Assembly: GCA_039028635.1 (NCBI GenBank)
Contig: JBCCHV010000072.1
Location: 1 to 32,138 of the forward strand
Direction: 5' to 3'
Length of the DNA: 32,138 nt
From: Acidobacteriota bacterium
Lineage (GTDB): Bacteria; Acidobacteriota; Thermoanaerobaculia; Multivoradales; JBCCEF01
In this document: positions 1-32,138 of the stretch, in pieces
Layout: every line of letters starts with the position of its first letter
Position numbering within the stretch: the first letter of the stretch is position 1
Notes under the pieces: generated by a model
What the model was told of the DNA's origin: nothing
The model's input: only the letters and a program-made list of their open reading frames with translations
Database searches by the model: none
Program-made: the position numbers and the translations under genes

Positions 1-48
1 CTCGGGCCCGGTCGCAGGTTGCCGACGAGTTTTTCAGCAGCCTGCTAG
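1..48 (-). repeat. Interspersed CTAG-CAG repeat, end copy at window edge
   Basis: Read on the minus strand, this stretch starts with CTAG followed by CAGGCTGCTGAAAAACTC, then a GCAACCTGC arm and a CCGGGCCCG tail. It matches the right-hand part of the repeat unit at 32070-32117 with only a few differences. The first arm GCAGGCTGC can pair with GCAACCTGC (one mismatch) as a stem-loop. The TAG of the CTAG is the stop codon of lptE, so the hairpin begins at the end of that gene. The copy runs off the window edge. It could act as a transcription end signal or be the remnant of a small mobile element. Confidence 0.75.
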
Positions 49-24869: not shown

Positions 24870-25964
24870 ATGGACACGTTCGGTCAGATGCTGGACATGG
24901 GACACGAGAGGGTACTGATCTGCTCGAACCCGGAGGTCGGCTTGAAGGCCATCATCGCGGTGCATTCCTCGGTTCTCGGGCCGGGCCTCGGCGGGGTCCG
25001 GATGTGGCCCTACAGCAGCGTGGACGAGGCGATGACCGATGTCCTGCGGCTGTCCCGCGGCATGACCTACAAGGCCGCCGCCGCCGGCCTCAACCTCGGC
25101 GGCGGCAAGGCGGTGATCATCGGCGATCCCAAGCAGGACAAGAGCGAGGCCCTGTTTCGCTCCTTTGGGCGCTACGTCGACTCCCTCGGAGGCCTCTACA
25201 TCACCGCCGAAGACGTCGGCACCGACATGGAAGACATGGACGCCATCTTCACCGAGTCGCGCTGGGTCACCGGCGTTGCCCCCGCCCTCGGCGGTAGCGG
25301 CGATCCTTCGCCGGTTACCGCCTACGGCACCCTGCAGGGCATCAAGGCGGCGGCTCGCTGGCGCTTCGACGACGCTTCCCTGAGCGGCAAGTCGGTCGCC
25401 ATCCAGGGCCTCGGCAGCGTCGGTCTCTATCTGGCGTCCTACCTCAAGGACGAAGGTGCCAAAGTCTTCGGCTGCGACATCGATCCCGAGGCCACCGCTG
25501 AAGCGGCTTCAAAGCACACCGTCGAGATCGTCCACCCGGACGAGATCTACGACGTCGACTGCGACATCTTCGCGCCCTGCGCCCTGGGCGCCGTGCTCAA
25601 CGACGACACCATTCCGCGGCTGCGCTGCTCGATCGTCGCCGGCGCGTCCAACAACCAGCTCCACGACAGCGACCGCCACGGCGCCGCCCTCAGCGACCGC
25701 AAGATCCTCTACGCCCCCGATTTCGTGATCAACGCCGGCGGCCTGATCAACGTCTACAACGAGCTCACCGGCTCCTACAATCAGGAACGGGCGCTGCGCA
25801 TGACGCGCAGCATCTTCCTCAATCTGACCCGGGTGTTCGAGATCGCCAAGGCCGAGAACATCCCCACCGCCGAAGCCGGCGACCGGGTGGCCGAGGAGCG
25901 CATGACCAAGATCAAGGCCCTGGGAGTTCGCCAGTGGGGCCGCTTGATCGACGAGCGACGCTAG
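24870..25964 (+). CDS. Leucine dehydrogenase-type amino acid dehydrogenase (Glu/Leu/Phe/Val family)
   Basis: NAD-dependent oxidative deaminase of branched-chain or related amino acids. The 364-residue length equals typical leucine dehydrogenases. Lys68 and Lys80 in MTYKAAAAGLNLGGGKAVIIGDP are the substrate-binding and catalytic lysines, TAEDVGT holds Asp115, and the Rossmann motif GLGSVG (180-185) followed by Asp203 suggests NAD rather than NADP. GEGG-type family features continue with APCALGAVLND and INAGGLINVYNE. GAGGGG precedes the ATG. It is the first plus-strand gene of the right part; its TAG stop is part of a repeat copy. Leucine versus valine or phenylalanine as preferred substrate cannot be settled by sight. 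Confidence 0.9.
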   Translation: MDTFGQMLDMGHERVLICSNPEVGLKAIIAVHSSVLGPGLGGVRMWPYSSVDEAMTDVLRLSRGMTYKAAAAGLNLGGGKAVIIGDPKQDKSEALFRSFGRYVDSLGGLYITAEDVGTDMEDMDAIFTESRWVTGVAPALGGSGDPSPVTAYGTLQGIKAAARWRFDDASLSGKSVAIQGLGSVGLYLASYLKDEGAKVFGCDIDPEATAEAASKHTVEIVHPDEIYDVDCDIFAPCALGAVLNDDTIPRLRCSIVAGASNNQLHDSDRHGAALSDRKILYAPDFVINAGGLINVYNELTGSYNQERALRMTRSIFLNLTRVFEIAKAENIPTAEAGDRVAEERMTKIKALGVRQWGRLIDERR

Positions 25965-25989
25965 CAGGTTGCTGAACAAGTCGCGCTAG
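25961..25989 (+). repeat. Solo copy of the CTAG-CAG repeat end
   Basis: CTAG is followed by CAGGTTGCTGAACAAGTC, then GCG and another CTAG. The first TAG is the stop codon of the dehydrogenase. Only one arm is present here, so it looks like a remnant or short version of the element at 31931-32117. Two more CTAG tetramers follow at 25997 and 26011. Confidence 0.7.
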
Positions 25990-30812: not shown

Positions 30813-31934
30813 ATGCCGGCCAGCTCCGTTCTCCGTCACTTCGCCTTCGCCACTCTGCTGATCATCGGCGCGTCCCTCTCTCCCGCCGCGGCGCAGGCGC
30901 CGAGCTGTGATCGCCACAGCAGCTTGACCCCCTTCGCTCTCGACACGCGCAGCGGACGCGCTCTCCTCTCGGTGAGCGCCGGCGATGGGCGACGAGGCTT
31001 GATCGACCTGGCCGGCGATGCCGCCAGCGGTCGCCTTCACGCCGCCGACGAGCGGCCCGTGTTCGCCGGTTCCGTGGGCCCCGGAGAGCCCTTTGGAGTC
31101 GAACGCTGTGGCCGCGAGTGCCTGCAGCCGGTGCGCTGGCAGGAGGGCCGTTGGAGCCCTCTGGGCGAAGCCTTGACCATCCCCCGCCGAGCCACCGTCG
31201 CCACCACCTGGGACCTCTCCGGCTCCGCCTGGCTGGTCGCCCTCGAAGGCGATCCGGCGACCGCCCGGGCATTTCGCCTGGTGGCGCGCGAATGGCAGCC
31301 CATGGGTCAGCGGCCGGTCCTCCTCGATCGACCAGAAGCGGCCTATCCGGACGCCGCCGATCGCCAGGGAGTTCTCTTTGGCGGCCTGCGCTTCAGTGCC
31401 GGAGCAGATCCGGCGACGACGCTCTCGGGCCTGCCCCGGGGTGCCGCCGGCGAGCTCCTGCCGGCAGGCGGCGACGACCATCGGATCCTCCTCGATGAGC
31501 GTGGCCGGGTGTTTCGCTCGGCCGACGCCGGCCGCCGTTGGGAGCTCAGTCGCTGGACGCCCTGGGGAGTTCAGCAAACCCGCACCTGGGAGCCCGGGCG
31601 CGACTATCAAACGGTTCGGCCCACCGGCGATGGCCAGGGCGCCCTCGCGCTGGCCTGGTTCGATCGCCGCAACCGCGACCAGCCACGCTTGTACCTCACA
31701 ACTTGGGATTCCGAGAGCGGTTGGCGCACCCTCGCTGATCTCCCTCCGGAGATCTCGACCCTCGACGGCCAGGTCTTGGCCTACGACTACCTGCTCCGCC
31801 CCACCGCCGAGCGCTGGCTGCTGCTCACCGGCTGCGTCCACACGACCGCCAGCTCGCAGCTCTCCTTGCGCATCCTCGACGACGGCGGCGAGCTCTCGGG
31901 CCCTCGCCTGGTCCCGCTCACCAAGGTTCGCTAG
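30813..31934 (+). CDS. Secreted protein with Asp-box, unknown function
   Basis: 373 residues with a cleavable signal peptide (hydrophobic 8-24, cut expected after AQA at 29) so the protein is exported. It contains a BNR/Asp-box (Ser236-x-Asp-x-Gly-x2-Trp243) and many short strands with GRVFRSADAGRRW and ALAWFDRRNRDQPRLYLTTWDSESGW, which together suggest a beta-propeller related to sialidase-type repeats, without visible active-site residues. GAGG precedes the ATG. It is the last gene of the cassette, 18 nt after the acetyltransferase. It might bind or process the surface glycan. Its TAG stop is part of the downstream repeat. Confidence 0.7.
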   Translation: MPASSVLRHFAFATLLIIGASLSPAAAQAPSCDRHSSLTPFALDTRSGRALLSVSAGDGRRGLIDLAGDAASGRLHAADERPVFAGSVGPGEPFGVERCGRECLQPVRWQEGRWSPLGEALTIPRRATVATTWDLSGSAWLVALEGDPATARAFRLVAREWQPMGQRPVLLDRPEAAYPDAADRQGVLFGGLRFSAGADPATTLSGLPRGAAGELLPAGGDDHRILLDERGRVFRSADAGRRWELSRWTPWGVQQTRTWEPGRDYQTVRPTGDGQGALALAWFDRRNRDQPRLYLTTWDSESGWRTLADLPPEISTLDGQVLAYDYLLRPTAERWLLLTGCVHTTASSQLSLRILDDGGELSGPRLVPLTKVR

Positions 31935-32117
31935 CAGACTGCTGAAAAAGTCCGCTCCGCGACTTTTCCAACGCTGCTAGCTGTTTGTTTCAGGGGGCTA
32001 AGCGCCCCCTCGCCCGAAAAAGTGCGATTTTTCGGGCTCACCCCGTCTCACGGCTCCGCCGCCGGGCCCTCCGGGCCCGGAAGCAGGTTGCCGATGACTT
32101 TTTCAGCAACCTGCTAG
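31931..32117 (+). mobile_element. MITE-like repeat unit with CTAG at both ends
   Basis: The left end reads CTAG then CAGACTGCTGAAAAAGTC (31931-31952) and the right end GACTTTTTCAGCAACCTG then CTAG (32096-32117). The two 18-bp ends are inverted repeats with 16 matches, and CTAG could be a target duplication. The interior encodes no protein and contains several perfect stem-loops (31992-32010, 32012-32037, 32062-32080, 32083-32114). The left 50 bp are themselves a smaller CTAG-bounded palindrome. The size, ends and lack of a gene fit a small non-autonomous element; families with short palindromic targets (IS5- or IS1182-type) are possible relatives, by inference only. Confidence 0.6.
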
Positions 32118-32138
32118 CAGACTGCTGAAAAAGTCCGC
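32114..32138 (+). repeat. Start of the next copy of the repeat unit, cut by the window end
   Basis: The last 26 nt (32113-32138) repeat 31930-31955 exactly, giving a 183-nt spacing. The CTAG at 32114 is shared between the unit before it and this one. The window ends inside this copy. Confidence 0.7.

Follow-up and report, generated by a model that had tools for sequence, protein, structure and literature searches.

A short CTAG-bordered repeat element frequently seated on TAG stop codons in an Acidobacteriota genome

Repeat copies and gene ends in the window

The window is the whole of one contig (C72, 32,138 bp) from an Acidobacteriota genome (G000) of 6.28 Mb in 117 contigs, which is ~95% complete. 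A first-pass annotation had reported that three genes here end on copies of one repeat, and the TAG stops of all three do coincide to the base with its leading CTAG. On the minus strand lptE (45–578; Pfam LptE, PF04390) stops at 45–47, within a CTAG (45–48) that closes a right end of the element truncated by the contig start (1–48, minus strand). This right end forms a hairpin, GCAGG..CCTGC, like other right ends (fold −17.3 kcal/mol, z −1.8). The 3' end of lptE is natural, as the orthologue in a genome of the same genus (G238) also terminates in LLEGF-stop. A related element lies at the lptE stop in G238 too (C2 near 378016), with the opposite end facing the gene when judged by eye. These elements look like two independent insertions at one stop.

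The second gene, on the plus strand, encodes a Glu/Leu/Phe/Val-type dehydrogenase by Pfam (24870–25964) and has its stop at 25962–25964. It ends on a worn, one-ended remnant of the repeat, CTAGCAGGTTGCTGAACAAGTCGC (25961–25984, plus strand), for which no partner end was found and whose hairpin is not significant (fold z +0.7). The G238 orthologue is of equal length (364 aa) and ends in TAA without an element.

The third gene (30813–31934, plus strand) encodes 373 aa and stops at the TAG of CTAG 31931–31934. Its earlier label as an Asp-box protein was not confirmed, with zero Pfam matches, and its G238 orthologue ends 3 residues off the same point. The stop opens a complete 187-bp element (31931–32117, plus strand) that consists of a left end (31931–31980), internal hairpins, and a right end (about 32070–32117). 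The CTAGs at its borders, 31931–31934 and 32114–32117, may be read as a target duplication. The left end is terminator-like (31931–31991, plus strand), with a stem CUAGCAG...CUGCUAG at 31931–31980 followed by CTGTTTGTTTC at 31981–31991. It folds with −31.6 kcal/mol across 80 nt (z −2.9); a simple terminator scan did not flag this copy. A second, tandem element is represented by its start only (32114–32138, plus strand) as the contig end truncates it. The fourth CTAG at which the repeat begins in the window, at 32114, is the junction of these two elements and no gene lies there.

Overall, the window contains 11 CTAGs where 42 would be expected. Rfam at gathering scores matched two tRNAs only in the window and nothing at the three repeat sites. 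Both window ends (1 and 32138) fall within elements, and this is true of many further contig ends in G000. Members of this family break the assembly, and where a copy lies at a contig end its partner is unreadable.

Ends, borders and copy number of the element

The sequence CTAGCAGNNTGCTGAA has exactly 200 exact copies genome-wide, 99 forward and 101 reverse. For further analysis, 138 stretches around 196 listed copies were taken together with the window, giving 139 sequences (584 kb) in which 199 ends were found. These were assembled into 164 element records, with a partner end defined by ≤6 mismatches within 460 bp. A recognisable partner is present in 79 records, spanning 101–431 bp, with 59 of them at 187–259 bp, and many copies are arranged as facing pairs. 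The other 85 records have no partner within 460 bp, and many of them adjoin contig edges.

Both ends of the element begin with CTAGCAGRYTGCTGAAAAA, and terminal inverted repeats of 19–22 bp are found on both sides. The partner border in the 79 two-ended elements is CTAG in 57, TTAG in 8, and another sequence in 14, including a single CTAA. Tandem elements hold one CTAG in common, as at 32114 in the window, which is expected if one element inserts into the existing CTAG border of another. Being short, non-coding and bounded by terminal inverted repeats, the element has the make-up of a MITE. By its sequence, the repeat forms the terminal inverted repeats of this multi-copy MITE.

Seating on TAG stop codons

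Genes were called with a simple custom caller based on codon usage, resulting in 539 genes in the sampled loci. Those of at least 300 nt end in TGA (219), TAG (190), or TAA (18). From the 199 ends, 26 abutting another element and 13 at a contig edge were set aside, leaving 160 for assessment; a few abutting ends escaped the pattern filter and count as off-stop. The TAG is the in-frame stop of a called gene at 78 of the 160 ends. The other 82 comprise two where the gene reads through to a TGA 12 nt inside the repeat, one overlap with a gene on the opposite strand, and 79 lying beside genes.

As each element has two ends, the fair counting unit is the element. After removal of 28 with nested or edge flanks, 51 of the 79 two-ended elements are readable on both sides. 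The copies in the window fall outside this set, two having no partner end and one a partner at the contig edge. Among the 51, 39 are seated on a TAG stop, 12 of these on two stops. The three cases in the window are hence neither chance nor hand-picked. The wording that the repeat always supplies the stop was too strong, with 82/160 ends and 12/51 elements off-stop. It had also been put forward that the strand of the repeat follows the gene. This follows automatically from both ends reading CTAGCAG inwards, and is ruled out as a sign of function.

CTAGs outside the elements provide the reference. The sampled G000 loci contain 32 free CTAGs at stops, 65 in intergenic DNA and 37 in coding sequence (36, 71, and 46 with narrower margins), while 797 kb of G238 contains 98 at stops (5 two-sided), 205 elsewhere between genes and 278 in coding sequence. 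Thus about a third of free non-coding CTAGs are stops. Relative to those of G238, the elements are strongly enriched at stops (OR 8.2, p 6e-10), as are the 28 best-preserved copies, of which 18 are at stops (OR 4.2, p 6e-4); these p-values assume independent copies. Within genes the picture is reversed, as only 2/51 elements overlap a gene without ending it, compared with 278/581 free CTAGs at coding positions.

The raw stop share is affected by how the loci were retrieved. A CTAG that bears a stop is protected from mutation and a free CTAG is not, so retrieval through an exact CTAG favours copies with a stop-protected CTAG and inflates the share. Around 18 of the first 100 ends located through just the inner portion of the repeat have no CTAG. 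The raw 39/51 hence overstates the preference, which nonetheless persists in the well-preserved set. The stop share is 18/28 in well-preserved copies compared with 21/23 in the others (p 0.04), and the higher share in worn copies is expected either from this sampling bias or from retention.

Other genomes agree with a stop preference, but more weakly. Where the TAG is kept in the border, 10/18 ends in G238 are on a TAG stop, six are elsewhere, and two are within a gene; three further ends have a border without TAG. Loci from other genomes, some of which belong to the same phylum, provided 162 ends. A frame of at least 150 codons ends at the TAG in 38 of these, compared with 2 and 15 for the other two frames, whereas 754 free-CTAG readings give shares of 11%, 7%, and 16% for the same three frames. 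A frame of at least 100 codons runs to the TAG on at least one side in 21/44 distinct pairs versus 99/315 free CTAGs (p 0.04), and TAG-ending frames occur on both sides in 6/44 versus 14/315 (p 0.02).

Natural gene ends

Fifteen element-ended genes and 82 control genes were compared with their orthologues in the sampled part of G238. The end residue is identical in 10/15 element-ended genes and 28/82 controls, and the end lies within 3 residues in 13/15 and 59/82, respectively. None of the 15 is shortened by >3 residues, compared with 15/82 controls, a difference not significant alone (p 0.12). These comparisons uphold both the proposal that the repeat persists at natural 3' gene ends and the view that its genes are not cut short. 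A contrary case is GAPDH at locus L136, shorter by 6 residues than its G238 counterpart.

The ssb gene provides the one clear empty site seen. SSB ends DDDDIPF in both species, and while the G000 element sits exactly at the stop, G238 reads TTCTAG there without an element. This site, together with the CTAG borders, suggests that CTAG is duplicated upon insertion. The stop codon of the relative was also tried as a guide to the ancestral stop. It proved uninformative, with CTAG stops in 4/13 orthologues of element-ended genes and 1/8 of free-CTAG genes, no clear excess for the former, as stop codons turn over fast.

Convergent genes sharing an element

Both convergent neighbours end at the element borders in 12/51 elements, compared with 5/303 free non-coding CTAGs with two-sided stops in G238 (p 8e-8). 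Convergent genes can overlap their stops by 4 nt at CTAA, TTAA, CTAG, and TTAG (PMC2174442). The natural explanation for the two-stop sites is insertion into a CTAG shared by both stops. Such an ancestral shared CTAG was not seen in G238 at the two pairs examined, ssb and GAPDH. There the neighbour of ssb lies >1 kb away and that of GAPDH is convergent across a 15-bp gap with no shared CTAG.

Overlaps of this kind do occur in the relative. In C1 and C2:260001-420000 of G238, 9/95 convergent pairs have an overlap of exactly 4 nt formed by a YTAR tetramer (5 at CTAG, 4 at TTAG/CTAA), one of them involving a called gene of just 90 nt. These nine represent a pool of possible two-stop targets. The 33 free convergent pairs in the G000 loci contain no 4-nt stop overlap, which is not significantly different from the 9/95 in G238 (p 0.11).

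Hairpins and orientation

Left and right ends were classed by custom sequence patterns. At the left end the stop codon forms the base of a long stem, after which comes a U-rich tract, with CTGTTTTTTCCG and CTGTTTGTTTCA as the commonest tails. Among the ends of two-ended elements with a placeable stem, 66/79 left ends have at least 6 T in the 12 nt after the stem, compared with 1/74 other ends; the loci are 16% T. Left ends thus have the shape of an intrinsic terminator, a G+C-rich stem-loop and then a U-tract, although their stems carry internal mismatches. It had been suggested that the repeat acts as a stop-plus-hairpin mRNA end. The left end fits this by prediction, from its U-tract and the orientation described below, whereas the other ends do not (1/74).

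Among elements with a single stop and a single left end, it is the left end that faces the stop in 27 cases and the other end in 10 (p 0.008). The best-preserved pairs have a bias of 16:7 (p 0.09). Counted as single ends, 48/81 left ends and 26/68 right ends are on stops (p 0.014, with 11 unclassified ends left out). These features suggest that the left end may terminate transcription.

A transposase within the same ends

The element is not limited to this genome. At least 117 stretches, drawn from genomes of many phyla, match the pattern CTAGCAGRYTGCTGAAAAASTC, and CTAGCAGNNTGCTGAAAAA is present in 21/297 genomes of the same phylum, G000 included. In L294 (genome G229, same phylum) and L267 (a Schlesneria MAG of another phylum) the same ends enclose an intact transposase in an element of 1.3–1.4 kb with CTAG at both sides. 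Both proteins score above the NCBIfam IS5-family cut-off (NF033581) and contain DUF772 and DDE_Tnp_1. For L267 the IS1182 model scores 214 bits compared with 211 bits for IS5, yet it is below its own cut-off, as it also is on the other IS5-type proteins examined. Two more loci, L266 (a Thermoleophilia MAG) and L273 (an Acetobacteraceae MAG), each contain two broken pieces of the same transposase family, all below the cut-off.

The termini are hence common to transposase-encoding IS5 elements in other genomes and not in G000. A protein search of G000 found no IS5-type transposase and no DUF772, and no autonomous partner was found in this assembly, which is 95% complete and broken at many repeats. 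The copies may therefore be immobile now, or the partner may be missing from the repeat-broken assembly. The sole DDE_Tnp_1 gene (L374, G000:C54:33030-33647) was rejected as a resident mover as its inverted ends, GCCACTGCTGTCCCACAAA, begin with GCCACTGCTGTCCCAC and are unrelated.

In E. coli, IS5 is reported to duplicate YTAR targets (PMC10359306). CTAG is one of the YTAR tetramers, and the element borders (CTAG in 57/79, TTAG in 8, CTAA in 1), along with the single empty site, agree with a duplication of this type. We infer that an IS5-type transposase moved the G000 copies.

A different arrangement is found at L293:1141-2958 (G259:C4:67640-69457), where a double-domain Y1 (IS200-like) transposase lies with REP-like hairpins between the same CTAG ends. 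It appears as if a pair of IS5-type ends had captured a RAYT system.

Interpretation

The observation that genes end on this repeat is real and general, and the repeat is a known kind of element at an unusual address. It is probably an IS5-type MITE that targets CTAG and, by duplicating it, leaves the stop codon intact, with copies at gene ends retained or favoured. The MITE would be non-autonomous and moved, now or formerly, by an IS5-family DDE transposase that would cut at CTAG, and after repair CTAG would flank the insert on both sides. Where the CTAG holds a TAG stop the gene would retain its stop and full length, making the insertion harmless at the protein level. Convergent genes sharing a CTAG as a 4-nt stop overlap would each obtain their own stop, ~200 bp apart. 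The scarcity of CTAG, loss of insertions within genes, and retention at stops would then combine. The left end would place a stem-loop and then a U-rich tract immediately 3' of the stop. As it faces the stop more than expected by chance, retention probably reflects in part selection for, or tolerance of, termination. Selection rather than targeting may lie behind the stop enrichment.

A stronger form of this reading is tentative and, taken as a whole, somewhat doubtful. The element would be a portable stop codon plus terminator that settles on TAG stops, preferentially at CTAGs in overlapping convergent stops, where each gene would obtain a stop of its own through the duplication, the two transcripts would be set apart and insulated by the insert, and the host would keep such copies because they end transcription.

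Several other explanations were considered. Plain tolerance, in which any CTAG is hit, genic copies are lost, and stops are the harmless remainder with neither preference nor function, is rather improbable. It accounts for the near absence from genes and the natural C-termini through a CTAG target and lost coding insertions, it gains from the inflation of the stop share by CTAG-dependent sampling, and outside G000 and its sampled relative the elements surpass free CTAGs by just ~1.5-fold (21/44 vs. 99/315). However, stop CTAGs are still preferred over others of the same layout, with stop:non-stop ratios of 11:1 for elements vs. 30:31 for free CTAGs in convergent and 14:7 vs. 59:119 in tandem layouts. 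Well-preserved copies overall also prefer stops, two-stop sites are strongly over-represented (12/51), and the left end faces the stop 27:10. Active targeting, in which the transposase prefers CTAG at transcribed gene ends, guided by terminator structure, supercoiling between convergent genes, or a longer context, so that the stop is a target and not a survivor, is somewhat unlikely. The gradient of enrichment, from two-stop to one-stop to other intergenic to coding sites, would follow from targeting, but the identical gradient is predicted by selection and retention. The stop share is moreover lower in well-preserved than in worn copies (18/28 vs. 21/23). The lack of 4-nt stop overlaps in free convergent G000 pairs (0/33 vs. 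9/95 in G238, Fisher p 0.11) points towards targeting, as do the lptE elements of both species, whose opposite ends facing the gene, by eye, suggest two events.

A REP/RAYT-like system, in which a tyrosine (Y1) transposase makes the palindromic units as proposed for GTAG REPs, is very unlikely. Four other genomes carry DDE transposases between these termini, with the gene intact in two of them, and the long terminal inverted repeats, bordered by CTAG at either side, suit a DDE element. Two loci in G000 that partially match Y1 above the Pfam cut-off might be counted in its favour, but neither has such termini when 3.2 kb is searched with ≤3 mismatches. Its remaining support comes from G259, where the same termini surround a double Y1 transposase and REP-like hairpins, and from GTAG REPs, which supply TAG stops as well (PMC3733652). 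Least credible is that the repeat imposes a new, premature stop. Of the three reading frames that run into the repeat, one meets its stop at the TAG, so random truncation would be expected to produce a number of such endings, and GAPDH at L136 is 6 residues shorter than its G238 counterpart. Nonetheless, the TAG frame is used by 78 genes and the TGA frame by 2, none of 15 genes is shortened by >3 residues, and SSB retains its C-terminal DDDDIPF. As a general rule, truncation is refuted by this C-terminal comparison.

An IS5-type MITE at CTAG would represent a simple route to a harmless, possibly useful transposon, in which a palindromic target containing a stop is copied on insertion. A single insertion keeps the stop and doubles it where convergent genes overlap. 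The YTAR set reported as the IS5 target comprises the same four tetramers (CTAA, TTAA, CTAG, TTAG) as convergent stop overlaps (PMC2174442). How transposons choose targets, how genes overlap, and how terminators arise are thereby connected in a way that can be tested. For annotation, a CTAG adjoining these repeats is often a genuine gene end.

Relation to known repeat systems

ERIC, NEMIS, and RUP differ from the CTAG MITE in termini and target. They resemble it in being non-coding, 70–300 bp long, bounded by terminal inverted repeats, and strongly folded as RNA beside genes, and the part of the source considered here does not describe stop-codon seating for them (PMC3733652). There is also a close likeness to the IS5 family (NF033581) and its derived MITEs, as the termini are the same as those of complete IS5-type elements elsewhere, one in another phylum, and the CTAG borders agree with the YTAR duplication in E. 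coli (PMC10359306). The G000 elements differ in being 101–431 bp long and highly structured with no transposase found in the genome, and in their strong concentration on TAG stops, two-stop sites included. MITEAba12 is likewise a short MITE whose mover is a resident IS, but it makes 9-bp target duplications (PMC6382973). One of its copies at the 3' end of a gene truncates that gene by a premature stop, the opposite of the CTAG MITE (PMC6382973).

That short repeats can provide TAG stops has been published before for GTAG REPs, which are palindromic, lie 3' of genes, and often give the stop (PMC3733652). Both systems occur between tandem and convergent genes (PMC3733652). GTAG REPs have a GTAG tag at one end of a 20–40 bp palindrome, whereas the elements here have CTAG at both ends of 101–431 bp, two-sided terminal inverted repeats and a link to DDE transposases, and two convergent genes can each be served by a border of their own (compared with PMC3733652). 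Nor were ends of this kind found beside a RAYT gene of the same genome, at the two Y1 loci of G000 (3.2 kb, ≤3 mismatches). What is different here is a DDE-type element, a palindromic CTAG able to serve two genes, and an orientation bias. Literature searches limited to open-licence papers brought up no account of IS5-type MITEs seated on stops, which is weak evidence of absence. In G259, two short elements (L295 and L296) contain the REP-like hairpins of L293 too.
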